A stretch of DNA of 64,000 bases, from contig NZ_VWSH01000004.1 of the NCBI RefSeq assembly GCF_008629695.1, positions 677,093-741,092 of the forward strand, given 5' to 3'. The position numbers were made by a program, and so were the translations under genes. This stretch comes from Taibaiella lutea (GTDB taxonomy: Bacteria; Bacteroidota; Bacteroidia; Chitinophagales; Chitinophagaceae). Positions 1,805-45,700 of this stretch are shown in pieces; the first letter of the stretch is position 1; every line of letters starts with the position of its first letter. The notes under the pieces are model-generated. The model was not told where the DNA came from and did not search any database. It was given only the letters and a program-made list of their open reading frames with translations.

Positions 1805-2596
1805 TTAGAAATTGTATTTTGGAAAATCCCTTATCCTTAAATCTTCCGGCCATTCATCCATATCACCACCATGCCGGTCTTTTAATTTTAATTGCTTTGA
1901 TAGATGCGTTCCAAGTTGCTTCACGAATACGGAAATGTGTTCTCGTTTGCAGTCATTAATAATCTTTCTAATCCATTCCAATTCGCATGGCCGGTACCGG
2001 TATTTACCGTTTTCATTTCCTGATTCACCTCCGACAATAACCCAATCAATTCCAGGCAATACATGAAACGATTCTTTTAATTGCTCATAATACTTCATCG
2101 CTTTTGATAAGTCGATTTCACCATGCAGGGGTTCTAGGCTTAAAAACTTCACTTTAGCATCTATCTCGGTAACCAGCGATACCATTCTTTCTATTGCCCC
2201 CTGACTTCCTATGCTGGTTCCCAGCCACACATTATCCCAACCTTCACCCCAATCAGCTGGCAGACATTCTGGTATGCGTTCCGGCCTTTTGGTAAGTATC
2301 TGGAAAGTATGCTGCGGGCATCTGCGGATAATATCCCAGGCTTCATGTCGGTAACTATCAATGTCAGGGTGAAAGAAGTCTGTAAGGGAACATGTAAATA
2401 TTCTGCTTGGTTCCTTTATTGTCAATGGCAGATTAAATACTGTCTTTGTCCTGATAACCTGGGCTGGGTCATATCTGGTATTATTAAGGCTCTGCCGGTA
2501 CATGTAACAGAACTTACAATCAGCATCAACCTTGCTGCAGCCACGGGCTATATTCCAAGTGTGATCTGTCCAGGCTATACTACTTTCTTTTCCCAT
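1805..2596 (-). CDS. DUF5131 (phage Gp37/Gp68) family protein
   Basis: A 263-residue protein starting at an ATG. The N-terminus matches the DUF5131 hallmark: I-A-W-T-D-x-T-W-N then C-x6-C-x2-C (CSKVDADCKFC, residues about 20-30), reminiscent of a radical-SAM cluster motif. Later come conserved TSIGS and WVIVGGESG segments, also typical of the family. Members are widespread in phages and some bacteria; the reaction is unknown, though a TIM-barrel iron-sulfur enzyme is plausible. It overlaps the upstream HNH gene by 17 bases. Confidence 0.88.
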   Translation of the reverse strand: MGKESSIAWTDHTWNIARGCSKVDADCKFCYMYRQSLNNTRYDPAQVIRTKTVFNLPLTIKEPSRIFTCSLTDFFHPDIDSYRHEAWDIIRRCPQHTFQILTKRPERIPECLPADWGEGWDNVWLGTSIGSQGAIERMVSLVTEIDAKVKFLSLEPLHGEIDLSKAMKYYEQLKESFHVLPGIDWVIVGGESGNENGKYRYRPCELEWIRKIINDCKREHISVFVKQLGTHLSKQLKLKDRHGGDMDEWPEDLRIRDFPKYNF

Positions 2597-3221
2597 TTCT
2601 TATTTTTTTATTGATATTAACTCCCCAAGTGGGTGTATTTTTATGACATTTACGGCATAGGCATCTACCGTTTTCAACTTCAAAAATTCTTTCATTTAAC
2701 AATGCTTCTTCTATTGTTTTGATATTATCTTCAAACACAATCTTTGCTAATGGAATAATATGATCTGCATCAATCGTTATATTATTTCCAGCTTTTTTCA
2801 CATTGCAATGTGTACATGTAAACTGATCCTTTCTATAAACATCTCTTCTCCATTTTTTATATCTTTCGGTATTCCTTATTTGTAGAATGAGTGAACTAAT
2901 GCCGCCTTTCCAGTTTGGATTTCCAGGTCCTTTATTTATAATTCTCATTTTTTGTTTAGAATCTTCAGTATGTAGTTTGCCTTTAAAAGTTGATACACGT
3001 CCTTTTGTAACGACCTTCACTTTTACTCTTTGACAGAATCTGCACTTAGATACTAATCTATCCCACCTTGAATTGTCAATATTGAATAGTGCTTTTGATA
3101 TCCATTTTCTACATTTAAAGCACCACTTTAACCCATTGCTTACTTGCTGGTTATAAAAGTCTAAGTTCATACCTTCCTTTTTACAGAATTGCTTAATCCG
3201 GCCTTCTCTTGTTGTCCCCAT
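2580..3221 (-). CDS. HNH endonuclease with zinc-finger N-terminus
   Basis: A 213-residue protein if started at the ATG at 3221; a longer reading frame would use TTG at 3287, reaching into the tRNA promoter. The N-terminal half has two Cys pairs (CFKC and CRFC), a zinc knuckle likely used to bind DNA. The C-terminal half is an HNH nuclease: CTHC, then D-A-D-H-I-I-P-L, then N-G-R-C-L-C-R-K-C-H. The basic middle segment resembles free-standing phage HNH homing-type enzymes. It could be a homing nuclease or a phage recombination nuclease. It lies directly beside the plus-strand tRNA-like cassette. Confidence 0.85.
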   Translation of the reverse strand: MGTTREGRIKQFCKKEGMNLDFYNQQVSNGLKWCFKCRKWISKALFNIDNSRWDRLVSKCRFCQRVKVKVVTKGRVSTFKGKLHTEDSKQKMRIINKGPGNPNWKGGISSLILQIRNTERYKKWRRDVYRKDQFTCTHCNVKKAGNNITIDADHIIPLAKIVFEDNIKTIEEALLNERIFEVENGRCLCRKCHKNTPTWGVNINKKIRNGKRK

Positions 3222-3252
3222 CCTATATAATAGTTTATATAATTTAATTTTG

Positions 3253-3260
3253 TACCTTTG
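3253..3260 (+). promoter_or_regulatory. Bacteroidota-type -7 box (TACCTTTG) for tRNA-like gene
   Basis: TACCTTTG matches the Bacteroidota consensus TAnnTTTG exactly. It points toward the tRNA-like sequence that begins about 35 bases downstream, giving a predicted start near 3267. No clear -33 box is seen, so promoter activity is inferred. The same eight bases occur as promoter boxes at 31,081 (minus strand) and 40,256. Confidence 0.5.
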
Positions 3261-3293
3261 AGTTACTCTACTCTCCGAAGTGACCAAGGTTCC

Positions 3294-3892: not shown

Positions 3893-4203
3893 TAGCTGAC
3901 CTTTGCCATATCATGAATGGTTTTCAATTGCCGTACAACATGTGCGATAGGTTTACTATGGTAATCCTTAATAACCTCCGATATCGCCTTAATGATGGGA
4001 CCTGATTCACTTTTGTTTGCAGATTCAATTACTGCCCTTTCAAATTGTTTCTTAGAATTTGCCGTTTCACTTTCAGCCACCTGCTCCAGATATCTCATAA
4101 CCCTCCCCGAACGTGACTTTGTATGCTCCGGAAGCGTGAAACCAAACTGTGCGGTAAGCAAGTCACGTAAACGATTATAGTTTTCTATTGATTTAGTATT
4201 CAT
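3892..4203 (-). CDS. Phage hypothetical protein (helical)
   Basis: A 103-residue protein, basic and largely helical, starting at an ATG. Nothing in it matches a known catalytic motif. It overlaps its downstream neighbour (RuvC-like gene) by one base and its upstream neighbour by about 11 bases, so it is embedded in the replication operon. Its place between dnaB and a resolvase suggests an accessory replication or recombination role, which is inference. Confidence 0.65.
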   Translation of the reverse strand: MNTKSIENYNRLRDLLTAQFGFTLPEHTKSRSGRVMRYLEQVAESETANSKKQFERAVIESANKSESGPIIKAISEVIKDYHSKPIAHVVRQLKTIHDMAKVS

Positions 4204-4390
4204 TGTCTGATTTTGATTTAATTATTAAATAAACTTTCGTCCCTTCCATCAAATGTGGGCCAATACCGTCCATTATTTTCAATAACACCAACTCATCCTC
4301 TTCCAAACGTTCTATCACATTTGGATTGTCGGAAAGGGAAATAGGGACATTGGTAACATGGCCGTTGGGATGGTGTATTTCGATTCTCAT
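4193..4390 (-). CDS. Phage hypothetical small protein
   Basis: A 65-residue protein starting at an ATG that abuts the dnaB stop codon exactly. It opens MRIEIHHPNGHV and is acidic in the middle, with a likely beta-rich fold. No family is recognised. Confidence 0.6.
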   Translation of the reverse strand: MRIEIHHPNGHVTNVPISLSDNPNVIERLEEDELVLLKIMDGIGPHLMEGTKVYLIIKSKSDNEY

Positions 4391-5884
4391 TTAAAATGGT
4401 GCATCGTCAAACGCCTGCATCTTCTTACCCTCTATCCTTTCATCTGGTGAGGAGGTTGGCATACCGGCAAATGGCTTAAAAGTTGTATTGCGCCCCATGT
4501 AGGCATTTGCTTCCGAGGGGTTCATCCACTTCTGTATATTTCCAAAAAACTTGCATTCCTCCATATCCCCTAAACTGCCATTCCTATGTTTTGCTATTTT
4601 TATGACATTTTTTATCTGGCCGCTTTCGGCATCTTTGGGATGGTGGATAAACATTACTATATCAGCATCCTGTTCTATGGCACCGGATTCTCTTAAATCG
4701 GAAAGCATAGGCTCCTTATCACTTCTTTTTTCAACATCACGGCTCATCTGTGAAAGCGCTATTACCGGTATATCCAATTCTTTGGCAATACCTTTCAGCC
4801 CACGCGATATCTTGCTTATTTCCTGTTCACGGTTGCCTCCCTTTGTTTCGCCGGCCATCAGCTGCAGATAGTCGATAATCAGCAATCCGATATTGTGTTT
4901 CCTTTTTAACCTCTTGGCGCGGGCGCGGAGTTGGGTAATCGAAACCCCAAATGTTTCATCTATGTGAATATTCTTGCTTGCTATGATGTTTAAAGTCTGG
5001 TCAATATGTGATGTTTCGATATCAGAGAGCTGCCCTTTTGTTATTTTTTCCAGCTCTATCAGAGACAAAGCGGAAACAACTCTTTTCATAAGTTGATCAG
5101 CTCCCATCTCAAGGCTGAATATTGCTACCGGTACAGGGTCTTCACCGACGGTAGCATTCAAGGCAAGGTTTAAAGCAAAAGCAGTCTTTCCAACGGAAGG
5201 CCTTGCAGCAAGAATAATTAAATCCGTATTTTGCCAGCCACCGGTTTTATCATTGAGCCATGAATAACCTGTATTTACTCCGGTAATGTCTTTCTTGTTT
5301 TCTTTTGCAGCCTGAAGATTTTCCATGAAGGGAATAATCAAATCCCTGATGGGTTTAGCTTCCGATATATCACCTTCCGAAATAATCCTGATTAGTTCTT
5401 GATCTGCGGCATGCACTATATCGTTTAATGATTCACCATTTTCATAAGACAATGCCATTAATTCGCCGGCAACCTTTATCGATTCACGTCTCTTATAACA
5501 TTCCAGAATATCTTCAGCATGGGAGAGGATTGTGTGATCAAATACTGTCTTGTCTGATAATTTTGTAAGGAAATAACCACCGCCAATCAATTCAAGGTTA
5601 CCTGAATTTGAAAGCTCCGTAGTTACACCAACAAGATCAACTTTCTGGCCCTTACCGTTCATGGTGAGGATTGCATCATAAATCCTCTGATGAGCATCGA
5701 GATAAAAGCATTCACCGGATTTAAGGATTTCCATTACCTCTATCAATCTTCCGGAACCGTTAATCAGCTGACTCAGTACTGCAGATTCCGCCTCTTTGTT
5801 TTGAGGGGGAATTTTGCCGTACATTGGCTGAATAACAGGTTTCTTTTGGCTATTGATCAATTTATTTAATTTAATTGTTTCCAC
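4391..5884 (-). CDS. dnaB: Replicative DNA helicase DnaB
   Basis: A 497-residue DnaB: N-terminal domain from P-P-Q-N-K-E-A-E-S-A-V-L (residues 26-37), then the RecA-like domain with Walker A A-R-P-S-V-G-K-T (227-234) and Walker B L-L-I-I-D-Y-L-Q-L, plus the SQMSRDVEKR and DLRESGAIEQDAD motifs. It would unwind the phage fork as a hexamer and may recruit host primase. The start is GTG at 5884, overlapping the DUF4373 gene by 14 bases; an ATG at 5824 would also leave the domain intact. No helicase loader other than the adjacent DUF4373 protein is visible. Confidence 0.95.
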   Translation of the reverse strand: METIKLNKLINSQKKPVIQPMYGKIPPQNKEAESAVLSQLINGSGRLIEVMEILKSGECFYLDAHQRIYDAILTMNGKGQKVDLVGVTTELSNSGNLELIGGGYFLTKLSDKTVFDHTILSHAEDILECYKRRESIKVAGELMALSYENGESLNDIVHAADQELIRIISEGDISEAKPIRDLIIPFMENLQAAKENKKDITGVNTGYSWLNDKTGGWQNTDLIILAARPSVGKTAFALNLALNATVGEDPVPVAIFSLEMGADQLMKRVVSALSLIELEKITKGQLSDIETSHIDQTLNIIASKNIHIDETFGVSITQLRARAKRLKRKHNIGLLIIDYLQLMAGETKGGNREQEISKISRGLKGIAKELDIPVIALSQMSRDVEKRSDKEPMLSDLRESGAIEQDADIVMFIHHPKDAESGQIKNVIKIAKHRNGSLGDMEECKFFGNIQKWMNPSEANAYMGRNTTFKPFAGMPTSSPDERIEGKKMQAFDDAPF

Positions 5885-6593
5885 GGTTATACCAGTTTGT
5901 AAAAGTGTAATAGGCCGAATTATTCTTTTGATTCAGTAATTTCCAATTGTGCATTTTTAAACAAAGCGACATTATTTCCTCCGATGTACATTTTTCTTTC
6001 AGTTTTAGAAATTGCTCCTGCGTAAATGGCTCTTTCATTTTGGTAACAGCCGGCGCCTTATCCAATAGCCATGCCTGAAATTTTATAAAAGAATCATCGG
6101 AAAGAATTGGCTGTGTCTGAGTTTCGTCAGAAACAATCTCTTCTTTTTCTTTACTTTCCTTTACTTTACTTTTCTTTCCATTTATTGCATTGCTTTTGGT
6201 TTGCTTTTGTAATGCATTTGCATTGGAATTGCTTTCTTCTTTTGATTTATTCCATCTCTCGTGGGCTGCCTGGCTTCTTTTTTGAGATATTTCTTCTTTA
6301 ATATCCATCCTTCTTTTAAGACTTTCGGAGTAGAAACACTTACCACATTCGGTAAAGGAGAATAACCCGAAATCATTAATAATGGATTTTATTTTGGCGG
6401 AATCGGAACGAAGGTCATAGGCTATAACATTATAATCACAGACACTCGTATAGTTCTCGCACTCTCTTAATTTTTCAATAATTGCCCAAAAAAGCCCATA
6501 GCCCTCCCACCCTAACTTCATCCTTAAAGCCACCGTCTTATCATCTCCCCGCGCATTACTATCGTGAGAAAAGTAAAATTTGTCCTTTGCCAT
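5871..6593 (-). CDS. DUF4373 (Lin1244/Lin1753-like) replication protein
   Basis: A 240-residue protein starting at an ATG. Residues 1-95 match DUF4373: K-F-Y-F-S-H-D-S then a winged-helix-like region with G-W-E-G-Y-G-L-F-W and I-I-N-D-F-G-L-F. A low-complexity charged linker follows, then a C-terminal domain ending in W-Y-N-R-G resembling the DnaD/DnaB-II tail. Such proteins initiate phage replication or load the helicase; it sits directly upstream of dnaB with a 14-base overlap, which supports a loader or initiator role. Confidence 0.85.
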   Translation of the reverse strand: MAKDKFYFSHDSNARGDDKTVALRMKLGWEGYGLFWAIIEKLRECENYTSVCDYNVIAYDLRSDSAKIKSIINDFGLFSFTECGKCFYSESLKRRMDIKEEISQKRSQAAHERWNKSKEESNSNANALQKQTKSNAINGKKSKVKESKEKEEIVSDETQTQPILSDDSFIKFQAWLLDKAPAVTKMKEPFTQEQFLKLKEKCTSEEIMSLCLKMHNWKLLNQKNNSAYYTFTNWYNRGNN

Positions 6594-6602
6594 TTCATAT
6601 TT

Positions 6603-6785
6603 TTAACTTGCTTCAAATAATTCTTGTTGCGGGTTCCTTGGTTTCATTTCCTGTTTTATTACGTTGTCCAGGATTGCTTCATATTTTTTCATCCGCTTTC
6701 TAACATTACCATCACGGGTCAATTCATACTTCTTCTGAAGCTGCCTGACTTCGAAAACAAGTAATATGAATTGTGCCGGTGTCAT
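6603..6785 (-). CDS. Small helical phage protein
   Basis: A 60-residue protein beginning MTPAQF, predicted to be a helical hairpin or coiled coil (heptads of L/I/V with many K/R/E). Its ATG overlaps the stop of the C5 methyltransferase (TGATG). No family is recognised. The first four residues and the start-codon context are shared with the next two upstream genes. Confidence 0.55.
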   Translation of the reverse strand: MTPAQFILLVFEVRQLQKKYELTRDGNVRKRMKKYEAILDNVIKQEMKPRNPQQELFEAS

Positions 6786-8806
6786 CAGGCAACTTTTTTA
6801 ATATTACTTCTTTGTAATGACAATTCATTAATGGCCAGTGTCATCCTGTTTGTCCATGCCATTACAACATGCGGCACGACACTATTACCAATAAATTTCT
6901 TCTGGTCTGTTTGGTTGCCATGCAATTTATAGTCGGCAGGGAAACCCTGAATTTTAAGAAGCTCAACAACTTTGAGCATGCGCATTTTAATATCAACAAT
7001 GCCGTACAAAGCCATGAATTCTTTAATTTTTACCACAATCGGCAAATCATCATCATAAACCTGAATTGCTATCTGGCCGGTTTCAGCATTTATAAGATAA
7101 AGTGGCGCCTTATCCTGTCTTGCGACAATAACTGGACAGGGCTTATCAATGCTGCCATTAGCACCGCCCCATGAAGGGTTCACTAAATATGCCCACTTTC
7201 TGTTAGCCGTAATTGTTGGTGCAGGCTGTTCAATAGAAGTAGGAGTATTAGCGTAATTGGTGTTCATTACAAATGCGGTTACAATGTTCATCTTCGGGAC
7301 AGTCATTAATGCCCCTGCAGGTTGTTCTACGCTTTGATGCTGCCCGCCTCCTGAAAAGTTACGGTCAATAAAATGCTGTGTGCTGACAAGACAATGCTTA
7401 TCGTTTGCAAGAATACTGCCTGCAGGCTGCTCCAGGGACTGATGATTGTCTGCCCCTCCATATTGCTTATCCAGAAACTGAGGATGAATGATACTCAGTT
7501 TGTCCTTACAGGTAAGCGTTGGACAAGGGTCGTTTATATCATTGGTACTGGAGCTGTGATGATAATTCACCAGATAATTTGGGTGGACCAATGCACATCT
7601 GTCTTTTGTAGGTATGGTCGGCGCCGGTTCATTGACGCTTGAATTGTTATCTCCATTTCCATAATAAGCGTGTAAGAAAGCAGCCTGAATTAAATCCTGA
7701 TTTCCACCGGTAGATGTTAGCGTTCTTGCGGGTCCTTCAATATCCACAATCTTGCTTTCAGGATCACCGCTATTTCTTTGGGATATAAAGGAGGCCTGTA
7801 CCAATGCCTGGCTGTCAATACATTTAATTGTTCCGGCAGGGCCCTCAACTGAAATGTTTTTACCATCAGGATCACCAGAAAAATACTTGGAAATGAATGC
7901 TACACCTAATCTGTTTTGACAGGCTATTGTCGGACAAGGAGCGTCTGTTGATGGTGGATGGTGTACTCCGGCAGAGGTAGTCGAATTGTATTTTAAAATA
8001 AAGTTTTCTTTACCCCCTGCAATATGTTTAATCAGTCCGGCATAAATGCGATCGAATGTTTTTGGAGAAAGTTCCTTTTTTCTTCTGAAAATGCTTTTAC
8101 CCTCATCTGAAAAATCCAGAACGTCTTTCACCGGCATCCACTTTTTTAAAGGAGTGTCAAACAACTCAGTTGATTCTGAAACTTTCTTTGAATGGGTTGG
8201 TTCAGGCCAAACAATCGGTAATCCTTCTTTAGCAAAGCATCCAAATAGCCTGTTTCGGCTGGTGTAAGCCCCAAAATCAGCACTATTCATTTGTTTCCAC
8301 TCGTCACGATATCCATAAGAACATAATCGGTTACGCCACCTGTTCCAATCGGTACCGTTCTTTCTGCTGACTGGTTTCCCTTTGGCATCTAATGGCCCCC
8401 AACTCATAAACTCGACCACATTCTCAATCTGAACGTAATCAGGCTTTATAGCAAGGATGTAACGGTCCAGGAAATCAGCGAGCGTCCTACTATCTGCATC
8501 ACGCGGTTGACCACCTTTAGCCTTGCTGAAATTGGTACACTCAAGGGATGCCCAAAGGATAAGTTTTGCTTTTGGGTATTTCCGCCGGTAATGCCTGACA
8601 ATATGTTTTAATCCGGCAAGATGTAATGTCCTTATATCTTCCTCAAAGTGTGCAACTTCCGGGTGGTTTGCCCAATGGCTTTTTATTGCAATAGGATCAT
8701 GGTTAACACATGCGATTACCTTCGCCTTTCCATCAGTCATAGAAAAACCTTGAGTCGTCCCGCCTGCGCCACAAAACAAATCGACTACTAAAAATGTTGG
8801 TGTCAT
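6785..8806 (-). CDS. C5-cytosine DNA methyltransferase with tandem-repeat central region
   Basis: A 673-residue protein transferring methyl from SAM to cytosine C5. Motif I D-L-F-C-G-A-G-G (9-16), catalytic Cys90 in S-L-E-C-T-N-F-S (Pro of the usual PC replaced by Glu), motif VI I-E-N-V (127-130), motif VIII S-R-N-R-L-F (183-188), and motifs IX-X near 617-648 ending G-N-S-V-V-P. Between 269 and 575 lie about nine degenerate repeats of 30-40 residues, each an aromatic start, a Ser/Gly-rich turn and a P-A-P-T-I-like strand. The usual length is 330-450, so the repeats account for the excess. No cognate restriction enzyme is adjacent. Probably anti-restriction or epigenetic. Confidence 0.93.
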   Translation of the reverse strand: MTPTFLVVDLFCGAGGTTQGFSMTDGKAKVIACVNHDPIAIKSHWANHPEVAHFEEDIRTLHLAGLKHIVRHYRRKYPKAKLILWASLECTNFSKAKGGQPRDADSRTLADFLDRYILAIKPDYVQIENVVEFMSWGPLDAKGKPVSRKNGTDWNRWRNRLCSYGYRDEWKQMNSADFGAYTSRNRLFGCFAKEGLPIVWPEPTHSKKVSESTELFDTPLKKWMPVKDVLDFSDEGKSIFRRKKELSPKTFDRIYAGLIKHIAGGKENFILKYNSTTSAGVHHPPSTDAPCPTIACQNRLGVAFISKYFSGDPDGKNISVEGPAGTIKCIDSQALVQASFISQRNSGDPESKIVDIEGPARTLTSTGGNQDLIQAAFLHAYYGNGDNNSSVNEPAPTIPTKDRCALVHPNYLVNYHHSSSTNDINDPCPTLTCKDKLSIIHPQFLDKQYGGADNHQSLEQPAGSILANDKHCLVSTQHFIDRNFSGGGQHQSVEQPAGALMTVPKMNIVTAFVMNTNYANTPTSIEQPAPTITANRKWAYLVNPSWGGANGSIDKPCPVIVARQDKAPLYLINAETGQIAIQVYDDDLPIVVKIKEFMALYGIVDIKMRMLKVVELLKIQGFPADYKLHGNQTDQKKFIGNSVVPHVVMAWTNRMTLAINELSLQRSNIKKVA

Positions 8807-11460
8807 GCTCTATTTTCTAATAAATCAAATAATGAGGGAATACCCACTTGTTGCGTTGCTGCCTGACAATGAGAGGCACCATCTAAAAAGTAAGAAGGGT
8901 TAAGTTCGCAGGCCATTCCAAATCGTTTCAAAAGAATGGACCAGTATGGAACAGTCATCAGCCCACCGAAAGGGTCATACACGATATCACCTTCATTGCT
9001 CATCTGGGTAATTACCCTTTTTACAATATCAAATTGCATCGGGCACAAGTGCATTTCCTTTCCTTTGCTCCATTGCTTACCGTTAAGGGTAAGCATCCGC
9101 GTTATATCTGTCCATACTTCGTCGCTCCAGCTCTGGGGTTGGAGGAGCATAAAAGAAGGGGGTAATTTCCCTTTTTGCTCCAACAGTTCACCAACCCTTA
9201 CATGATGTTCAAAATTGTAAACTTCTTCAAGGCTGTGTTTTTTATAAAGCTTGAAAACCTCATCCGCTTTTAGGGACCATAAATCTTCAGGATCAATGAG
9301 CCTGTCGCCTGAACTTCGCGTGAAGCCATGGGCATCCACCTGCCATTTCGCAATACTGTAACCACTTTCAAGTTTGATTGGAAATTTAAGATCCCTGTCA
9401 TAAGGTATCAGGTTTCCTTCAGGAGTAACCATTACGGGCTTCCTTTTCAGTACCGGTTCATCGGCGTATGCATTACTAGTATCTGTCGGCGGCTTACGGA
9501 AAAGCAGAAGGTATTCGGGCATACCGACTCCCATCTTGCTGCCATCCTTACATTGCTCTGACCATCCTAAACGGTATGTTTGATTATTTTCCCTTACTAC
9601 GTCGGTAACAATAGTTTTCATGCCCATATAGGCGAAGCCATGTTTAACCATATGCTGAATGCAATCAATGTGAAAAGGATAAGTTGTCTGGAACCCTAAG
9701 CCTGTAATGCCAGCCGGTATTATCCTGTCTTTGACATGCAGGGCATATATACGACCTGGTTTCAGCACCCTAAATGTATCAGGAGTCAGATAGTCCATTT
9801 GCCTAAAGAATTCTGCATTGCTTTCCGAATGGCCAAAATCCGCGTAGTTAGGGGAATACTCATATTGATTGGAAAATGGCCATGAGGTAAGTATTAAACC
9901 GACGCTGTTAGTTTCTATATTCTTCGTTTCCGGAACATTATCATTTTGGAATATGGCAAATTTGTCGGTACGTATTTCTTTGCGCTCTATGCCCATTTTA
10001 CGCGTGAGCTGCTGGGCCATTGCCGCTTGTGAAAGCCCAAATTTCTTTACGATATCTATCATCTTTTGAACCAGTTTATTGTGTTGTTTCCATTTGCGCT
10101 CAAGAGTCCTGCGGACCTCTCTTTCTGCCTCTGTATAAATAAGATCTACCCTTACCTGATTTTTTTGCAGGAAACGTAGTAACCTGTGTATGCTTTGAAT
10201 GAATTCATTGAACTTAAAACCAATACCCATGTAGATTGCCCATGAACAATATTTTTGAAGGTTGGTACCGGAACCAAGCATGGAAGGTTTCCCCCCGATT
10301 TCAGGAATTAAACCGTTTGAGAAATCAGAAACAATTTGTTCTCTCAATTCAAGTGGTTGGTTACCAAAAACTGTTTTGATGGAAGGGATTGATTTTTCCA
10401 ATGACTCCCGCTCAGATTCAAGGTCATGCCAGATAACACGATGTGCGGATAAATCCTCCAGGCGTAATTCAAGTACTTTTTTGATTCTTGCAGGCAGGCT
10501 TTCCCTTTTTTCTTTTGATGCTCCCTGTAGACCAAGTGCCAGACTACGGAATAAAAGGCCTTGGCCACTCTTTTCGGTACCGGTATCTTCATGGTTACTT
10601 GTAAGCTCATGCCACCTTAAATCAAGTTCAGGTAATATATATCCTTCATCATCTGCGGGATTACCGGTAAGGTCTGATGGCTTCGTGACAAATAAAGCCC
10701 ATGATGCAACCCACAGCCAGAATTCCTCCTCTTTGCTCTCCAATAATGTCAGGTTATCTGCTTTTGTGCTATCCCTTTTGAAGAACCTTGTTTTTGCCTG
10801 GCTAACATCCATTACCCCAAGGAAATCTGCGTATGCCAATAGCTCTATATAATCGTTTGGTGACGGTGTAGCGGTAGCAACAAATCTATACATCACGCAT
10901 TGTACACCACGCCTATTACCATTAGGCCCTGCATCACCTGTAAACAATCTCATGAATTCACGGAAAGTTTTCGATCCTCCAAATCCCCGAAGAATGGACG
11001 CTTCATCAAGAGATACCACATCAAAATATCTTGGGTCTATCTTGCCATCACGTATCGTCTCATAGTTAGTCAGGTAGATATCGTTATCATCTTCAATTTC
11101 TGATAAGCACCTGATGAATTTTGGAAGTTTGTTCCATCCAAGGATGTCTCTGGCGTCATTTATAAATTCAGCCCTGACACCCAATGGGCAAACAATCAAT
11201 CCCTTCCCACTTGTAAGCCTGCCGGCCTTTCCTAATTCGCGAAGCGTACAAAGAACTGTTTCAAGCTGTGTAACCGTCTTATGCAATCCGAAATTTGCAA
11301 AACACGCAGCCCTCCCATTCTCTACCAGCCATTTTACCATTAGCTTGTTATGTGGCTTTAACCTTGGGTTTATTTCGTCTACTCCAATTGAAAAGCCATT
11401 GGAAGCGGCAAGTCTTACCTTGTTTTTCAGGAATTGGTCATATGGTATTGTCGGTGTCAT
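8803..11460 (-). CDS. SNF2-like helicase fused to N4/N6 DNA methyltransferase
   Basis: An 885-residue two-domain protein. The N-terminal SF2 part has F-G-L-H-K-T (57-62; canonical Walker A has G where His is), L-D-E-A-S (151-155), T-A-T-P-S-P-N-D (196-203) and a motif VI-like Q-S-I-H-R-L-L-R-F (422-430). The C-terminal amino-methyltransferase has T-S-W-P-F-S (525-530) at the catalytic (S/D)PP(F/Y) position and the SAM loop D-P-F-G-G-L-M-T (829-836) placed last, as in beta-class enzymes. It overlaps the C5 methyltransferase by 4 bases, so the two are co-translated. Either helicase-coupled methylation of phage DNA or a nucleosome-remodeller-like activity is possible. Confidence 0.88.
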   Translation of the reverse strand: MTPTIPYDQFLKNKVRLAASNGFSIGVDEINPRLKPHNKLMVKWLVENGRAACFANFGLHKTVTQLETVLCTLRELGKAGRLTSGKGLIVCPLGVRAEFINDARDILGWNKLPKFIRCLSEIEDDNDIYLTNYETIRDGKIDPRYFDVVSLDEASILRGFGGSKTFREFMRLFTGDAGPNGNRRGVQCVMYRFVATATPSPNDYIELLAYADFLGVMDVSQAKTRFFKRDSTKADNLTLLESKEEEFWLWVASWALFVTKPSDLTGNPADDEGYILPELDLRWHELTSNHEDTGTEKSGQGLLFRSLALGLQGASKEKRESLPARIKKVLELRLEDLSAHRVIWHDLESERESLEKSIPSIKTVFGNQPLELREQIVSDFSNGLIPEIGGKPSMLGSGTNLQKYCSWAIYMGIGFKFNEFIQSIHRLLRFLQKNQVRVDLIYTEAEREVRRTLERKWKQHNKLVQKMIDIVKKFGLSQAAMAQQLTRKMGIERKEIRTDKFAIFQNDNVPETKNIETNSVGLILTSWPFSNQYEYSPNYADFGHSESNAEFFRQMDYLTPDTFRVLKPGRIYALHVKDRIIPAGITGLGFQTTYPFHIDCIQHMVKHGFAYMGMKTIVTDVVRENNQTYRLGWSEQCKDGSKMGVGMPEYLLLFRKPPTDTSNAYADEPVLKRKPVMVTPEGNLIPYDRDLKFPIKLESGYSIAKWQVDAHGFTRSSGDRLIDPEDLWSLKADEVFKLYKKHSLEEVYNFEHHVRVGELLEQKGKLPPSFMLLQPQSWSDEVWTDITRMLTLNGKQWSKGKEMHLCPMQFDIVKRVITQMSNEGDIVYDPFGGLMTVPYWSILLKRFGMACELNPSYFLDGASHCQAATQQVGIPSLFDLLENRA

Positions 11461-12621
11461 CTATGCTGCTTTTTTAAACGGTACGTCTGTTAGTTGTTTG
11501 CCCTGATTGGCAATGTATAATTGTCCTTTTCTATCCTCCTTAATCAACATTGTTTCAATTTTTCCAAATAGTTCTATGTTGCCTCCCAAATCCACGAACC
11601 AGCCTGAATTCTTATCTTTATGTGGCCTCATTATCCTGCCGATAATCTGATAGTATAATGCCAGTGACATTGTAGACCTTGCCATAAGCACCGCTTCCAA
11701 TTCCGGATAATCAAATCCTGTAGTAAGCACTCCGACGTTTATAACACACCTTATCTTACCTGACTTGAAGTCTTTTAATATGCGGGACCTCTCTCCTCCT
11801 TCTGTTTCACCGGTAATAACTACAGAACCGGGTATGCCTTTTGCCACTTTGTTTGCCTCACTTATAAGCGTACAGAATACAAGCAGGTTCTTTCTTTTAC
11901 TCAACAGCCAATTGGCATATTTAACAGTCAGGCCGGACATGTTGACTTTCTTTTGCATTTCACGAATGGATGCTTCCGTAAAATCAGTTCCCGAACTATT
12001 CAGGGTAAGCAAATTCCTGTCATAGGCCTTTATAGAGAAATATTCAAGCTTGGCCAGGTGCCCTTCATTGAACAGCGTTTCTGTCTGTACATAATAGCTG
12101 ACATTGGTAAACACCCTTGGATAAGTCCTTGTAAGGAATTTCAATTCTGCGCCTTCCGCTCCTGTTGATAATCTATAAGGCGTGGCTGTCATCCCGAGTA
12201 TCTTAGCCTGTGGCATCCGGTCAAAGAACTGTTTGTACATACCATCATCTGAATTAACTAAATGGCATTCGTCGATTATGATATTTTTGACATCTTTAAA
12301 AAGGTGTGCCTTTTTTGCAATGCTGCCAATCGTTGCAAACGTTACAACATCCAGATACTTCTGGCCGGCTGATGCAGAGTATATACCTGCCCGAAAACCG
12401 TAACTCCTGTATTTGGCAACGTTCTGTTCAAGAATTTCTTTTGACGGCTGCAGTACTAATGTCTTACCATGGGCACCTTTCGCGATGTTTGCGATGATTA
12501 CAGATTTTCCGGAACCGGTAGGATAGATTTGTAACGTATTACGATATGTTGTGTAATTATTGAAAAATGACACAGCTATATCAATCCCTTCCTGCTGGTA
12601 CCACCTTGGACTGAATATCAC
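11461..12621 (-). CDS. DEAD/DECH-box helicase
   Basis: A 386-residue SF2 helicase: P-T-G-S-G-K-S Walker A near residue 35, D-E-C-H at about 115, T-A-T-P motif III and a C-terminal I-G-R-I-M-R-P motif VI. It resembles short phage homologues of the XPB/SSL2 group and likely remodels D-loops or forks. The start is GTG at 12621, which makes a 4-base stop/start overlap with the upstream gene, strong support for that start. The next gene begins immediately after its stop. Confidence 0.92.
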   Translation of the reverse strand: MIFSPRWYQQEGIDIAVSFFNNYTTYRNTLQIYPTGSGKSVIIANIAKGAHGKTLVLQPSKEILEQNVAKYRSYGFRAGIYSASAGQKYLDVVTFATIGSIAKKAHLFKDVKNIIIDECHLVNSDDGMYKQFFDRMPQAKILGMTATPYRLSTGAEGAELKFLTRTYPRVFTNVSYYVQTETLFNEGHLAKLEYFSIKAYDRNLLTLNSSGTDFTEASIREMQKKVNMSGLTVKYANWLLSKRKNLLVFCTLISEANKVAKGIPGSVVITGETEGGERSRILKDFKSGKIRCVINVGVLTTGFDYPELEAVLMARSTMSLALYYQIIGRIMRPHKDKNSGWFVDLGGNIELFGKIETMLIKEDRKGQLYIANQGKQLTDVPFKKAA

Positions 12622-13361
12622 ACCCTGTTGCTTTCAAGGTCAATATCTGCAGGATCTAAACCTTCGGTTTCGTCGCTTTCGTCATCGGTACCTGTGTCAC
12701 TATTCTCTCCTTCCGTTTCCTTAATCTGGTCTAAAATGGTACGTTGCTTAATATGCTTACCTTTTTCTTTGTGAGATAATTCTTCATCTTCTGAATCAGG
12801 AAGCGTATATTTCCCTTCTTTGTATAGAGAAACTTCTTCACGGATAAGGTTTATTAATGCTCTTAACTCGTTGTGCCACTGATAAGATGATAACTCATCA
12901 AAAGGAATACGAGGGGTTGAGAAACCTGTTCTACCGCCGGTACAGCTAATATGTTTACTTCCAGTTATAACGACCGTTTCATTTTCTTCAGCTCCTACAA
13001 TCTTTATACTGGTAACGTGGTAAAGCGAGGTTAATTCGTGGATGTGAAACTTATCGATGTCATCAATTTCGGTGTTGCTATGCTTGAATACATCATCAAT
13101 ACATGCGAAGTGGACATGTAGCTTTCCAAAGGCCTCCCCCAAATCGTTTTTATAAAGGCCGGCTCCTTTTACGTTGGGGTGCTGGTCACCTAAGCCAACA
13201 CCTTCGGTCACTTCGAATCCATAATTACAGAATCCATCATTGATGCTGGCCGATACAATTTTGTAAGGACGTTTTGTTTCTTTCAATCCTAAAGCTTCCG
13301 CTACCGATGCAACTACTTTTGAATTATTGCCTAAAGTGACGGTTAGTTTTTTTCTACTCAT
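12618..13361 (-). CDS. Phage protein with acidic C-terminal tail (ssDNA-binding candidate)
   Basis: A 247-residue protein starting at an ATG. Residues 1-190 look like one mixed fold with a basic N-terminus (MSRKKLTV) and histidine-rich middle; the last 45 residues are very acidic (runs of E, D, T, S). An acidic tail recruiting partners is typical of single-strand-binding proteins, and no canonical OB-fold SSB exists elsewhere in the operon, but no family was recognised and this is inference. Its leader carries the alternative-pairing RNA element at 13394-13529. Confidence 0.7.
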   Translation of the reverse strand: MSRKKLTVTLGNNSKVVASVAEALGLKETKRPYKIVSASINDGFCNYGFEVTEGVGLGDQHPNVKGAGLYKNDLGEAFGKLHVHFACIDDVFKHSNTEIDDIDKFHIHELTSLYHVTSIKIVGAEENETVVITGSKHISCTGGRTGFSTPRIPFDELSSYQWHNELRALINLIREEVSLYKEGKYTLPDSEDEELSHKEKGKHIKQRTILDQIKETEGENSDTGTDDESDETEGLDPADIDLESNRV

Positions 13362-13393
13362 TTTGTTTTAATTTATTGTTTGAAAAATAGCTT

Positions 13394-13529
13394 GCGGGCG
13401 ATATCGGGTTCGAACCAACATTGACTAATAAAGGACCTGTCATATTACCGTTGATTTACTTCGCGTGTCTCGGCCAACATAACCACCTATCCAAGGCACC
13501 CATATAAGCCCGCCCATGCATAGCGGGCT
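13394..13529 (-). ncRNA. Structured leader RNA with mutually exclusive pairings
   Basis: On the minus strand, AGCCCGC (13529-13523) and GCGGGCT (13513-13507) form a 7-bp hairpin with a 9-base loop. The same GCGGGC can instead pair with GCCCGC at 13399-13394, and beside it AUAU and GGGU also find partners, giving a long-range helix that encloses about 90 bases. A palindromic GGTTCGAACC resembling a T-loop sits in the 3' part. The 3' end is about 30 bases before the ATG of the next gene and is followed by a U-rich run. This is either a regulatory leader or a degraded tRNA-like RNA; the alternatives are not resolvable by eye. Confidence 0.45.
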
Positions 13530-32591: not shown

Positions 32592-35129
32592 CTAATGACT
32601 AATAAAATTAGCCTCATAATATTTGCCTTTTACCCAATAATCCAGAAAATCAGCATAATACTTACTTCCGGGATTCCCGCTTTGTCCGCCGGGATAAACG
32701 ACATAAGCATGAATAGCTTTAGGGTTCATCTGGACTATCATTCTCCAGCTCGGCCCATGATTTTGCTTCATGGCATTAATGGTGTTACCCCAACCACCTG
32801 TTTTAAGATGATCATAACTAAAGGCCGGAAGCTTTGCCAGATGCGTAACGGAAGTGTTTTTTACTTTATACCATTCTGCCCCACCGTTTTTTTCCAAAAC
32901 ATCAAAACTATCTTTTGCCTGCTTATAACTCAACGTTACCATGTCTTTCAATGTTTCTACTTTATTGGCAGTTGTTACATCATCATAATATTTAGAAGTT
33001 GTATCATCAAGAATTAAAAACATCGTTCTTTCTGATGAAGGATATAGTTTATCCGGGAAATTTTGAAATTCGTCCTGCCAGATGTTTTGGTAGAGATTTG
33101 ACCAGAAGATTTGGAAAAAAGTAGCATATTTCGAGTTTGCTAATAAATTTTCACCAGGTGGTTCTGGCTTTACAGATGGTTCACTTTGAGGAAATCTTAT
33201 AATTGTCCTATTCTCATACATTGATCTATTCAAAAGTGCAAGTCTTAAAATAGAAAAAGTAGAATTCTGTAATTTCTGATTATAATCCAAATCACCTTCC
33301 TTTGGCATATTATCTTCATAAGGCAATTGAAAATAATATGGACTATATAAATTGTATGGAAAAGCTTTCAAAAATAAAGTAGTATCAACTTTTTTCGCAT
33401 TAATACCATATGAAACAAAATGGTTTATTAATCCTTGATTTATCTCCCAACTCCTGAACTCCGTAAAATCACCGTTATAATAATAAGGATACGTCTCATC
33501 TGTAACATTTTGATTGGCGCTTGCAACATAGCCCTGTGGTGGATTATAGACATGCGGATTTTCGGCCATCGGAATGGTATCGCCCCAAAGCGTTGCACTT
33601 ATATCGCCACGCATCACATACTTTCCCTGGTCTTTCCATTTGTTGATGAATCGGCCCTGTCCCCAGATAGCTACATTACCATGCCGGTCGGAAAAAGCAA
33701 AATTCTGAGCAGGGCACTCAAAATGCTGAATAGCATTTACCCAGGTATCATAATCGGTTGCACGATTGTATAAATAAACAGATAGCAGTTCATTGGTTCC
33801 TCTATGTGCCATCCAGGTCATTGCAAGCATTTTACCGCTGCCTGAAGGTTCCGGAAAAGTTTTATCGTACATCACAGGCCCATGAATAGTGAAACGGATT
33901 GTATCTACAAATGGCTCTTTCTTTCCCTTAATATAAATTTTTTCGTAGCGTTCATTGAAAGGGACTTCCTTACCATCAAAAACATATAGGCGTGAATCAG
34001 TTGATTTGATTTCGTAATAATCCTTTACGTCTCTGTAGTTGTTGGTAAATCCCCAACTGATGCTGTCATTAAAACCAATGATAATGCCGGGTGCACCGGG
34101 GATAGAAACCCCATAACAATTAATGCCCGGTGCCGTCAATTGTTGTTCATACCAAATGGAAGGAAGATTCAAACCCAGATGCGGGTCATTACAAAGTATG
34201 GCTGCACTGTCTGATGTCAGTTTACCACCAATAGCCCAGTTGTTAGAGCCGATGCCGGAAGATGGTTTTGAATTTTCATCCCAGTTGAAAGCGGTCGGAT
34301 GCTCTTTTTGATTTTTCAGGTTTGCATTAGATGCTGCCGTATCAAAATGTGCAAACAAATCACCTTGAGGAACGGAAGGTATTCCGAGCGACGGTGCATT
34401 AAATGCAGTACCCGCAGGGATTACCGGCTGGTTCATTTTGATTTTATCAGGGAATAAATCGTCCAGCTCATTTGCAGGCATTGCATCCCTTAAATAGGTC
34501 ATAGCTATATCATCAACATTTCCCGTTAAGTCATCGGCCATGTATTTCAATAACAAGGCACATTTAAGGTTTGTCCATGCTTCGGGAGCAAACCCCATCA
34601 ATTTATATTCTAAAGGATAATCTTTGTATTGTAAATGCTGAATAAACAAATTAACGCCTTCGGTATAAGCATTCAACATTTCCCGAGTAAGCGGATTTGC
34701 TTCCATTGCTTTCAATGAATTTTCAGCGGCCCAGACCATGCCTTTTCTTCTTTGCTTCCTGTCAAAATCAAAAGCTTTATCTCCAATTACTTCACTTATC
34801 CTGCCAGCTGCAGCACGGGTCTGCATATCCATTTGCCACAGACGGTAATAAGCATGAATATAGCCTTGTGCCAGATACAAATCATGATTGTTTTGCGCAA
34901 CAACATGAGGCACTAATCTTCCATCAAAATCAACCTTAATGCTTTTTGATATTTTATCAGGAAAATGAAACTCGCTTGCAACATCTTTTACCGGTTCTGC
35001 ATTTCCCCAAAAGCCGTTGTAAGGATCGAGCAATTTGCCCAATGCAGGCAAACTACCTTTGGGTGCATTCAGGAACCAAATCCATAAGGCACTTAACGCT
35101 ATAGCAACAAAGAGATTAACGAAACGCAT
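32592..35129 (-). CDS. Penicillin-acylase family amidase
   Basis: An 845-residue Ntn-hydrolase precursor starting at an ATG with an N-terminal signal-like helix. The catalytic N-terminal Ser of the beta chain is in G-I-G-S-N-N-W, after which the enzyme is expected to autoprocess. Substrates in Bacteroidota are unclear; N-acyl homoserine lactones, peptides or cell-wall fragments are possible. The last five codons (to a TAG) overlap the repeat bordering the four-helix-bundle gene. Confidence 0.88.
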   Translation of the reverse strand: MRFVNLFVAIALSALWIWFLNAPKGSLPALGKLLDPYNGFWGNAEPVKDVASEFHFPDKISKSIKVDFDGRLVPHVVAQNNHDLYLAQGYIHAYYRLWQMDMQTRAAAGRISEVIGDKAFDFDRKQRRKGMVWAAENSLKAMEANPLTREMLNAYTEGVNLFIQHLQYKDYPLEYKLMGFAPEAWTNLKCALLLKYMADDLTGNVDDIAMTYLRDAMPANELDDLFPDKIKMNQPVIPAGTAFNAPSLGIPSVPQGDLFAHFDTAASNANLKNQKEHPTAFNWDENSKPSSGIGSNNWAIGGKLTSDSAAILCNDPHLGLNLPSIWYEQQLTAPGINCYGVSIPGAPGIIIGFNDSISWGFTNNYRDVKDYYEIKSTDSRLYVFDGKEVPFNERYEKIYIKGKKEPFVDTIRFTIHGPVMYDKTFPEPSGSGKMLAMTWMAHRGTNELLSVYLYNRATDYDTWVNAIQHFECPAQNFAFSDRHGNVAIWGQGRFINKWKDQGKYVMRGDISATLWGDTIPMAENPHVYNPPQGYVASANQNVTDETYPYYYNGDFTEFRSWEINQGLINHFVSYGINAKKVDTTLFLKAFPYNLYSPYYFQLPYEDNMPKEGDLDYNQKLQNSTFSILRLALLNRSMYENRTIIRFPQSEPSVKPEPPGENLLANSKYATFFQIFWSNLYQNIWQDEFQNFPDKLYPSSERTMFLILDDTTSKYYDDVTTANKVETLKDMVTLSYKQAKDSFDVLEKNGGAEWYKVKNTSVTHLAKLPAFSYDHLKTGGWGNTINAMKQNHGPSWRMIVQMNPKAIHAYVVYPGGQSGNPGSKYYADFLDYWVKGKYYEANFISH

Positions 35130-36905: not shown

Positions 36906-38555
36906 CTATTTCCTCCAATCTTTATATTTATTAATCAGCGCGTTGGTGGAGCTGTCATGTGTATCAATTTCCTTTTCGTTTTCCAATTCCGGCAATATGG
37001 CTTTTGCAAGTTGTTTACCTAATTCAACACCCCATTGGTCAAAGCTGTAAATATTCCAGATAATACCCTGTACAAAAATCTTGTGTTCGTATAAAGCAAT
37101 TAAAGAACCCAGATTTTTCGGGGTTATTTTTTTCAACAGAAATGAATTGGTTGGTCTGTTGCCTTCAAATGTTCTGTAGGGAAGCACTTTTTTTATATCA
37201 GTTTCACTTACTCCGTCATCCATCATCTCTTTGCTTACTTGTTCCGCTGTTTTACCATTCATTAAAGCCTCCGTTTGCGCAAAGAAATTGGAGAGCAATA
37301 TTGGATGATGTTGCCCTATCGGATTGTGGGATATGGCAGGCGCTATGAAATCGCAGGGTATCAATCTTGTTCCCTGGTGTATTAATTGATAAAATGCATG
37401 CTGGCCATTGGTACCGGGCTCTCCCCATATAACCGGCCCTGTATTATAAGTAACAGACGCACCGTTTCTGTCCATATGCTTACCGTTACTTTCCATATCG
37501 GCTTGTTGGAAATAAGCCGCAAAACGATGCATATATTGATCGTATGGAAAGATAGCATGTGTAGCGGCTCCATAAAATTGCATATACCAGAAACCAATCA
37601 AAGCCTGTAATACGGGTATATTTTTATCAAACGCCGTGTTCCTGAAATGAACATCGGTTTCATAAGCACCTTGCAATAACTGATCATAATTATCGTAACC
37701 AATGCCGAGGCAAATAGAAAGGCCGATAGCGCTCCAAAGCGAATAACGCCCTCCTACCCAATCCCAAAACACAAACATGTTGTTCGGGTCAATACCAAAC
37801 TTGGTAACACCTTCTTTGTTGGTAGATAACGCGGCAAAATGTTTCGCAATGTCTGTTTCTTTTGCCCCGCTTTTAAGAAACCAGTTTCTTGCGGTATTAG
37901 CATTAGTCATTGTTTCCTGCGTCGTAAATGTTTTGGACGCAACCAGAAACAAAGTTGTTTCAGGATTCAATGGCTTCAATGTTTCTGCTATATGCGTTCC
38001 ATCAATATTCGACACAAAATGTATATTCAAATGATTCCGGTAAGCCTTCAACGATTCATAAGCCATAACCGGGCCAAGATCGGAACCGCCGATGCCAATA
38101 TTTACTACGTCGGTAATGTTCTTATTGGTATAACCTTTATGTTCGCCGTTAATAACTGCATTGCTAAAACTTTTCATTTTACCCTGCACAGCTTTAATTT
38201 CAGGCATTACATCTTTTCCGTCCAATAAAACAGGATTATTGCTTTTGTTTCTTAGTGCCGTATGCAATACTGCCCTGTCCTCTGTAGCATTTATCTTTTC
38301 GGCTGCAAACATGGCTTCAATTGCTTCTGCAACTTTACATTCTTTTGCAAGTGATAATAATAATGCTATCGTTTCATTATCAACATTGTTTTTAGCAAAG
38401 TCAAAGTAGATTTCATTAAAAACCACACCAAAATGTATTGCTCTGTCTGGGTCCGTTTCAAACAAGCTTTTAATGCTTCTTTCTTTATGAAATCCGAAAT
38501 GCGCTTGCAGCTTTTTATATGCCGTTGTTGTGGTAAAATTTATGGCAGGGAACAT
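36906..38555 (-). CDS. pgi: Glucose-6-phosphate isomerase
   Basis: A 549-residue enzyme starting at an ATG; normal length for Pgi. [21 protein letters not shown] (PGI signature 1) and [18 protein letters not shown] are all present. It interconverts glucose-6-P and fructose-6-P, linking glycolysis to the pentose-phosphate operon at 48,170. It is a single-gene unit. Confidence 0.96.
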
Positions 38556-42722: not shown

Positions 42723-45700
42723 ATGCCAAAATTAAATTTTACACATTTAAAAACCCGGATGCTTTCAGGTTCCTTATTATTGCTCGGTGCACTTTTGGGG
42801 CCAAATGAAAAAATTAATGCACAAATACTGATTAATGAAGATTTTAGTACTGCAAATGGTCTTGTACCTCCTTCCAATTGGCTTAACCAGGATGCAGGCG
42901 GTTCTGATGGACAACAAATCTGGACATTTAATAATCCTGGGGGAAGAAATATTACAGGAGGCACTCCCGGCTTCAGCGGGCAGTTTGCCATAATAGATTC
43001 TGATGACGAAGGTAATGGTAATACTCAAAACAGTAACCTCGTTACACCTGCCTTCAGTGCATCAAATACAACACAAAGTTATGTTTTGGAATTTGATGAC
43101 AACTGGGAACAATGCTGTGGCGCTGTTGGACAAGTACAGGTTTTTAACGGAACTACATGGACTACCGTTTTTTCAGAGCCATCAACAGGCGACGGCGATG
43201 GCGATGAAGATCCGTCCGTACACAGGTCTATTAATATTACAGCAGGAACAGGTAATTCCGCTGCTGCAAAAGTAAGATTTCATTACGAGGGTGATTGGGA
43301 TTACTGGTGGGCGATAGACAACGTAAAGATTACGGCTATTTCCTGTACAGCTCCTGCTGCAACCTTTACAGCTGCCCTTGATTGTGCTAACAGTCAATTT
43401 TCTGTAAGCGTTAACGTTACAAATATGGGTAGTGCAACCAGCTTGTCATTAAGCGATGGAACTACTACTTATGGCTCTCCGATTACAGCCACGGGAACTT
43501 ATACTGCCGGCCCTTTTTCAAGTGGTACTACTCAGACTATCACATTGATTCACAATGCAAGTGCTTATTGTAATCTTGAATCGTCTCAAATATCTTATAA
43601 CTGCAGCTTGCCAAACGACAATTGTGAATACGCTGCTTCGGTTACTCCTTCAACAACTTGTACTCCTACAAGCGGTAGTACTATTGGGGCTACCGTATCA
43701 AGTCCGTCTGTTGACCCGGGATGTATAGATGCAGAAGCAGGTAATGATGTCTGGTTTAGTTTTACTGCAACTACTGCTTTGGCAAGTGTCAAAGTATCTA
43801 ATTTGCAACCTTCCAATAGTGATGCCATCATCGGAGAAGTGGGATTTTCCGTTTATGAAGCGAACTGCGCTGCTTTAGGTACCCCTCTTAACTGTGGTTA
43901 TTCATACTATTTCGATACAGATATTAGCGATGATCCATTATTAGTGTCTGGCTTAACTGTAGGACAGGATTATTTAATCAGGGTTCATAGTGATTTTGCT
44001 GCAGATGTTGATTTTAACCAGGTTACCTCTGATTACAATTTTGATGTTTGCGTGCAGTCGGTAACTCCTGTGCCTAATGATTTAATCTGTGATGCTATAA
44101 CATTAACTATTGACGGGCCGACTGACTGCCAAAATACGGCAACCGCTACTGCTAATAATGATCCGAGTGATATTAATAACTGCAGTACTCCCAACAATAC
44201 GGTATGGTACAAATTTACGCCAGCTACAAACGGACCTGTATTGGTAAATATTAAAGATCCTGCTGCAGGAGATCCATTATATGCTTGGGTATTTATGTAT
44301 AGCGTAACTGATCCATGTGGCTCGCCTGCATACACACAAATTCCTTTCAGCGCAAATACTTGTCAGGCTGGTTCTGATGGTGTAAACGGTTCATTAACGT
44401 CTTCACTTTCAGGCACCCTTACAGCCGGCCAGACCTATTACATTGTTCTTGATGGTAACAGTGGTGACGTAGGTGAGTATTGCATTTCTATTTCTTCACC
44501 GCCACCACCTCCTGGTTGTGTCACAAATATTTCCCCTACAAATGGTGAAACCAATATAATAGTTGACGCCGGAACTGATCCTTCCTTTAGCTGGAATGCT
44601 GAAAGCGGAGCCACTTCTTATGATGTTTATCTGGGAACAACCGCAGGAGGAGAAACCAACATCGGAAACGTAACAGGAACTTCCACAACAATAAGCGGCC
44701 TGACCATCGATACTACTTATTATTGGTATGTTGTTCCGGTTGGCCCTGGCGGACCGGCAACAGGATGCGTATCCAATGAATTCTCATTTACAACCTCTGC
44801 GGCAACACTACCTCCTAACTGTACTTATTTGAATTCACCGGATGACGGCAGCACCGTCGGTAATTTCCCTACATTAAATTGGGGCGCAGCTGACTACACT
44901 GAAAGCTATAACATATACCTGGACATGAATACAACACCGACAACTTTATATGGCACTACAACAACCCAAACTCAATACACAGGTTCCGCTGCATTGGCAC
45001 CAGGTACTTATTACTGGTATGTGCAGCCTGTAAACTCAATAGGTGCAGCCACAGGTTGCGAATCATCCGTATATTCCTTTACGGTAGTTCCTTCTCCGAC
45101 AAACGATGTGCCGACAGGTGCAACTGTAATAAATGTAGGCCAGCCATGTACAGGCAATTCCTTTACAAACGAATTTGCCAATCATAATCCCGGTGAACCA
45201 TATCCAAACTGTCAGATTCAAAGTCAGGGAGAACACTCTGTTTGGTTTCAGTTTGTGGCTCCGACAAGCGGTGGTGTAAAAATATCTACCGATATCGGCA
45301 CTTTGGGAACTTTGACCGACACTAAAATCGGACTATTCTCTGTAGGAGAAGCGAGCAACTATTCGACTTTTAACCTGATTGCATGTGACGATGATAATGG
45401 TGTGATTGATGACGGATATACTTCAACCATATTTACAACTGCTCTTACTGGTGGCCAGACATATTATGTTGAGGTTGACGGATATAGTAACAGTGACCAG
45501 GGAACTTTCTGCCTGGAAGTAACAGAAATAAATCCTACCATGTTATCAAGTACCGCTTCTTGTGCTGATTTACAAACACCTGTGGGCAATAATCCTGCTT
45601 ACAATGGCTGGATCACATTATTGGATGAAGATGGGGCACTTGTAGCAAATGTGCGTAATACAGCAGGTGGTCAGGCAAATGAATACAGTGGTTCCTATAA

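Follow-up and report, generated by a model that had tools for sequence, protein, structure and literature searches.

The window analysed here is a stretch of 64,000 nucleotides from Taibaiella lutea (contig NZ_VWSH01000004.1, positions 677,093 to 741,092), and our subject is a prophage gene within it that is predicted to encode a C5-cytosine DNA methyltransferase of 673 residues (Table 1). Here we report that an array of nine tandem modules fills the slot of the single target-recognition domain (TRD), and that each module is likely to be a small TRD of its own, which would make the enzyme multispecific.

The catalytic motif set of the protein is complete, comprising the motif IV cysteine, E-N-V of motif VI, R-x-R of motif VIII and motifs IX-X; C90, E128-N129-V130, R184, R186 and G640-N641 are invariant across 87 aligned sequences. 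The protein matches PF00145 at 101.4 bits against a cut-off of 22, residues 7-221 being the better of two stretches, and phrog_116 ('DNA methyltransferase') with an E value of 1.5e-70. A C5 methyltransferase fold is recognised, with solved C5 enzymes matching at about residues 608-650. At 82.9 bits the protein does not reach the curated cut-off of 100.65 for TIGR00675 (NCBIfam, dcm) and is not classed under that family. The residue before the catalytic cysteine is Glu where Pro is usual, giving S-L-E-C at residues 87-90. An initial annotation of this DNA had called the motif unusual, and it is indeed present, but Glu precedes the cysteine in 267 of 275 family members (S-L-E-C in 247, S-P-E-C in 16), and by this comparison the motif is a trait of the whole clade, not a peculiarity of the window protein. 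A residue other than Pro at this site is probably tolerated, because the distant relative Pyei1_p05 has S-P-D-C and activity has been published for its own relatives.

Residues 261-574, between motifs VIII and IX, hold nine units that are 37-43 residues long and overlap one another. Their core, P-x-x-[TSAV]-[IL], recurs at residues 290, 323, 359, 394, 427, 461, 496, 528 and 556, a spacing of 28-36 residues, and the unit consensus for the family is NNEALVQPAFLMKYYSGGPGKNSSIDEPAPTITTRDRLALVVP. A profile built from the units of 255 proteins whose catalytic domains are less than 60% identical to that of the window protein or give no alignment with it recovers all nine units at 20.4-48.4 bits. When residues 255-580 were shuffled 500 times the top score was 7.1 bits, and none of the shuffles held a domain of at least 10 bits. 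At the level of protein sequence the nine-unit repeat is confirmed as exceeding chance expectation, and the roughly nine tandem units described in the initial annotation stand. Tandem Repeats Finder at a score of 30 found no tandem repeat in the DNA, where the units have diverged; the array is therefore old, or its units were acquired separately.

Table 1. Positions in the window of the C5 methyltransferase gene, its parts and selected neighbouring genes
Feature	Residues	Position	Strand	Basis or remark
C5-cytosine DNA methyltransferase gene with nine-unit array, 673 aa		6785..8806	-	Open reading frame, ATG start, family matches
Catalytic half, motifs I-VIII (DLFCGAGG, S-L-E-C90, E128-N-V, R184/R186)	1-255	8042..8806	-	PF00145 match and 87-sequence alignment
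Unit 1, type 1	261-303	7898..8026	-	Unit profile and type clustering
Unit 2, type 3	300-337	7796..7909	-	Unit profile and type clustering
Unit 3, type 11	331-373	7688..7816	-	Unit profile and type clustering
Unit 4, type 12	368-409	7580..7705	-	Unit profile and type clustering
Unit 5, type 16	404-442	7481..7597	-	Unit profile and type clustering
Unit 6, type 17 (core Thr to Ser)	436-476	7379..7501	-	Unit profile and type clustering
Unit 7, type 21 (core Thr to Ala)	475-511	7274..7384	-	Unit profile and type clustering
Unit 8, type 8	507-544	7175..7288	-	Unit profile and type clustering
Unit 9, type 5 (core Thr to Val)	535-574	7085..7204	-	Unit profile and type clustering
Motifs IX-X and C-terminal helices	590-661	6824..7039	-	Invariant G640-N641 and others; solved C5 enzymes matched
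Fusion of helicase (phrog_16, phrog_62) and N6/N4-type DNA methylase (PF01555), 885 aa		8803-11460	-	4-base overlap with the C5 gene
ResIII-type helicase		11461-12621		Near the C5 gene
Possible homing endonuclease		2580-3287	-	Family scan; weak HNH and NUMOD3 matches

The number of units is not fixed among homologues, and the single repeat number that the initial annotation listed under refuting outcomes was not observed. We compared 515 proteins, 360 from protein searches and 155 open reading frames (ORFs) from genomic and viral loci; each protein search scored 7999 candidates sharing most words, from which the best 120 were taken, and two of the locus searches kept the best 80 loci. The sample is biased towards nearer relatives, which the family counts mainly describe, and before removal of redundancy it holds the window protein itself more than once (P0001, L001, L005). 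Two proteins had no unit, five had 1, 18 had 2, 39 had 3, 50 had 4, 103 had 5, 106 had 6, 88 had 7, 80 had 8, 18 had 9, five had 10 and one had 11. For the 360 database proteins, length follows 343 + 38.7 residues per unit (r = 0.96). The family architecture, as these lengths describe it, is a core as large as a small C5 methyltransferase plus a variable count of modules.

Units fall into recurring types. At the chosen clustering level, 2732 of 2988 units sort into 58 clusters of at least five members; the number of types varies with that level, from 93 to 300 clusters in the level comparison. The 437 non-redundant proteins present 266 distinct arrays, that of the window protein reading 1-3-11-12-16-17-21-8-5. 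Types 1, 3 and 20 sit close to the array start, type 8 precedes type 5 in 94 of 98 cases, and the terminal position is taken by type 2 in 169/169, type 5 in 153/153 and type 13 in 81/82 cases; a last unit fixed in this way may have a structural role in the small domain. Counting the array end and unclassified units each as one neighbour, types 1 and 3 have 22 distinct right-hand neighbours and types 11 and 12 have 19. Of the 1854 units in a first set of 275 proteins, only 3 had their best match within their own protein; most arrays are therefore not products of recent internal duplication.

Arrays change while catalytic domains stay nearly the same. Among 376 pairs of proteins with catalytic domains at least 85% identical, from which pairs containing any unclassified unit were excluded, the arrays differ in 250 and the number of units in 171. 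P0136 and P0163 have identical catalytic domains (100%), agree fully or almost fully in the first three units and the last, and carry 14-9 and 26-10, respectively, at the same array position. The catalytic domains of P0145 and P0169 are 98.9% identical, and their arrays have 14-9 and 10. Across more distant proteins, 76% of 1853 units have a best partner that is more similar to them than the catalytic domains are to each other; unit 4 of the window protein, for example, is 88% identical to a unit of P0052, with catalytic domains that are 50% identical. As a control we took pairs with 40-55% identical catalytic domains, in which a partner of at least 85% exists for 3.4% of 2542 units; of eight catalytic windows treated in the same way, six gave at most 0.5%, one gave 6.7% and the motif IV window gave 89%, with medians of 0.67 and 0.68. 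Because this control for distant exchange is weak, the claim that units are exchanged rests on the near-identical pairs and on the arrays.

To describe the anatomy of a unit, we took the 23 types that have 20 or more members and compared, column by column, the variation inside types with that among types. A separation of at least 1.0 bit is reached at 17 of 43 columns: ten in columns 12-23, six in columns 33-39, and column 30. Most members have Pro at position 28 in 23/23 types and Thr at position 31 in 19/23. On these sequences the conserved core of a unit, P-x-x-T-[IL], is flanked by two blocks that are constant inside a type and differ among types. M.HhaI has a conserved TRD threonine, Thr250, and a structure of its T250G mutant occurs among our structure matches. 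The two blocks resemble the two recognition loops of an ordinary TRD and may act as such loops; ordinary C5 methyltransferases read their target via TRD loops, which in M.MpeI are residues 292-309 and 315-329 (PMC10899764).

Matches to the window protein occur in 337 phage records and cover at least 80% of its length in 63; the hosts of these phages extend from Bacteroides and Cellulophaga through Pseudomonas, Gordonia and Mycobacterium. Pyei1_p05 is 27.8% identical to it over 95%. With a profile iterated on the distant members themselves, we counted eight units in Pyei1_p05, five in ARM81mr_p29 and six in Phi2LM21_p23 (weak scores). These proteins belong to a group of large m5C (5-methylcytosine) enzymes of proteobacterial phages for which relaxed specificity has been published; they are homologous to the window protein in their catalytic parts and likewise carry units, but differ in their low identity to it and in having S-P-D-C, not S-L-E-C, in Pyei1_p05 and ARM81mr_p29. 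A search of IMG/VR with Pyei1_p05 gave 32 loci; the motif IV text is kept in 28 ORFs, which by the same iterated profile have 6-9 units in 27 cases and three in one. Two m5C enzymes from prophages of Paracoccus aminophilus, JCM7686_0772 and JCM7686_2655, share about 69% identity with Pyei1_p05 (PMC6536676). They were cloned and are described as having relaxed specificity, with partial protection of several 4- to 5-base sites. The m5C enzymes of the phages of ARM81mr_p29 are likewise described as relaxed (PMC5537653). In the parts of the published account available, this relaxed specificity is not attributed to repeats.

Taken together, these observations are best explained by a probably multispecific enzyme in which one unit at a time would dock on the catalytic domain and set the target, so that the whole array would let one catalytic domain methylate several short sites. 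Such an enzyme would probably methylate replicating phage DNA and shield it from many restriction enzymes of the host; as units are exchanged, the range of sites it protects would be renewed. A bolder version, to which we give an even chance, is that the single-unit TRDs of the family make up a combinatorial library, in which dozens of types circulate, an enzyme holds as many as 11 units, and units are swapped as cassettes at a shared boundary strand: each type would specify one short target, 'relaxed specificity' would be the sum of exact ones, and an array could be thought of as a list of the restriction systems escaped.

Several results weigh against this multispecific reading. Compared with solved structures, the unit profile matched no TRD and only RNase H, at an E value of 0.98; it has no match in L195, the host's own second C5 enzyme, and it matches SPbeta MtbP only weakly (4.2 bits at 358-373; hhalign probability 3.5 at 357-371). 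Structure prediction, suggested as a check in the initial annotation, is only partly decisive: in the model of the window protein the predicted local distance difference test score (pLDDT) is 30-63 across the unit region and mostly below 50, perhaps owing to misaligned relatives with differing unit numbers, and for a four-unit relative, P0271, the prediction is confident for the last unit only. Exchange between distant enzymes was set aside as evidence, the excess similarity of units being largely equalled by similarly picked catalytic windows. Order within arrays is constrained, with both orders seen for 27 type pairs and the end types fixed, and units are not freely interchangeable. The experimentally studied groups are only distant, at about 28% identity to the window protein, and the P. 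aminophilus enzymes were placed in the multi-unit group via Pyei1_p05, in which the units were counted. For the latter enzymes the published protection is partial and does not extend to R.PamI, a result that would also fit a loose single specificity, and Phi2LM21_p23 gave no protection in Escherichia coli (PMC5537653). A further candidate link was not used as evidence: a piece of L163 holding a single unit together with motifs IX-X aligned to residues 229-318 of M.HhaI in 1svu_A only (E 0.02), other HhaI entries aligned over motifs IX-X only, and a shorter L163 piece loses the 1svu_A alignment.

The fixed terminal types, the P0271 model and the relaxed, partial activity in the literature would also suit an enzyme in which a single unit, perhaps the terminal one, is a TRD of loose specificity and the others are non-specific DNA contacts or diverging spare copies. 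We consider this unlikely: in all 23 types examined together the blocks are conserved within a type and different between types, and entire units give way to other established types, whereas spare copies would drift. It is improbable that the units jointly form a continuous DNA-reading surface with a TALE-like logic, each reading 1-3 bases of one long composite target that grows with the array. Tandem units with unit-specific residues, variable number and mostly kept order are what such a reader would have, but members with one unit exist, every unit has both blocks and the core of a full TRD, and enzymes of the multi-unit group give their partial protection at several 4- to 5-base sites.

The initial annotation had proposed the units as either multi-specific recognition elements or a scaffold. 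The first proposal gains from the TRD slot, the two-block pattern, the turnover of units and the relaxed distant groups, and under it the target specificity of each unit remains a matter of prediction; for the second no direct support was found, apart from the last unit, which may be structural. A protein-binding scaffold, for example for the adjacent fusion of helicase and N-methylase, strikes us as hardly credible. The fusion gene does overlap the C5 gene, and in 22 of 79 viral loci the flanks retrieved encode a homologue of its product, but 57 have no such neighbour in flanks that are in many cases short. The units moreover occupy the TRD slot, and with them removed no TRD remains between motifs VIII and IX.

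In Bacillus phages, multispecific C5 methyltransferases typically have two to a few TRDs each. Those of SPR, SPbeta, phi3T, H2 and others are described as carrying several tandem TRDs per polypeptide (PMC8936443, PMC5923457, PMC12707154). The window family is like them in being phage-encoded with tandem modules between motifs VIII and IX, and in our preferred reading it would work alike; it differs in having up to 11 units, recurring exchangeable unit types and a Glu-Cys motif IV, and its units have no clear sequence relation to SPbeta MtbP. M.HhaI and other single-TRD C5 methyltransferases differ in having one TRD and a single target. In Type I HsdS subunits, TRDs have been exchanged in evolution while the rest of the subunit stays; the replacement of recognition modules in an otherwise kept protein is similar, but HsdS is a different protein, and its target is a single bipartite site read by two TRDs. 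Tandem TRDs as such are already known in phage C5 methyltransferases; the present family stands apart by its scale, its combinatorial recurring types, its Glu-Cys motif and the lack of that clear sequence relation. A literature search on multiple or tandem TRDs in C5 methyltransferases found no arrays like these, with most subscription journals outside the search, so that it is no proof of absence.

Should every type prove to have a fixed target, a few dozen decoded types would allow one to predict from sequence which sites thousands of phage enzymes methylate, and they would reveal the restriction systems that shaped these enzymes. The family may offer a concrete cause for the published 'relaxed' m5C methyltransferases, as well as a natural part list for C5 target recognition. 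The natural pair P0136/P0163, with its identical catalytic domains and different arrays, makes the link between unit and target directly testable.

Upstream of the C5 gene, on the same strand, lie an SbcC-like gene and genes for RecT, a metallo-hydrolase, an exonuclease, NinB, an SF2 helicase and the fusion protein; downstream, again on the same strand, are a 60-aa ORF, a Lin1244-like gene and DnaB. Among the 15 genes scanned, the C5 gene included, none was recognised as a partner restriction nuclease, although a gene at 12618-13361 is unclassified and the HNH/NUMOD3 gene (2580-3287) and the ResIII-type helicase (11461-12621) lie close by. An anti-restriction role is probable because the gene sits among these phage replication and recombination genes and has no recognised partner nuclease. 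No Rfam family matched in positions 4000-13500.

An IMG/VR viral contig of 64,654 bases (L005) carries the C5 gene at 100% identity. Matches were found in 19 of 195 genomes of the host's family, its own genome included; four of these besides its own match below 1e-50, in one case within a frame of 163 aa, and the three other genomes of the host's genus gave no match. The host's second C5 methyltransferase (L195; G000:C2:102543-103544, minus strand) is an ordinary enzyme of 341 aa from the first Met, with one TRD by appearance. It is adjoined by a 495-aa ORF, and the two are perhaps a restriction-modification pair.

Elsewhere in the window, ORFs of 1284 aa (42723-46577, plus strand) and 845 aa (32592-35129, minus strand) have no PHROG match at 0.001. 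A DUF5131 protein (1805-2596, minus strand) matches PF07505 strongly, and a 549-aa protein (36906-38555, minus strand) matches phrog_9408 (annotated 'unknown function') over its full length with an E value of 1.5e-176.
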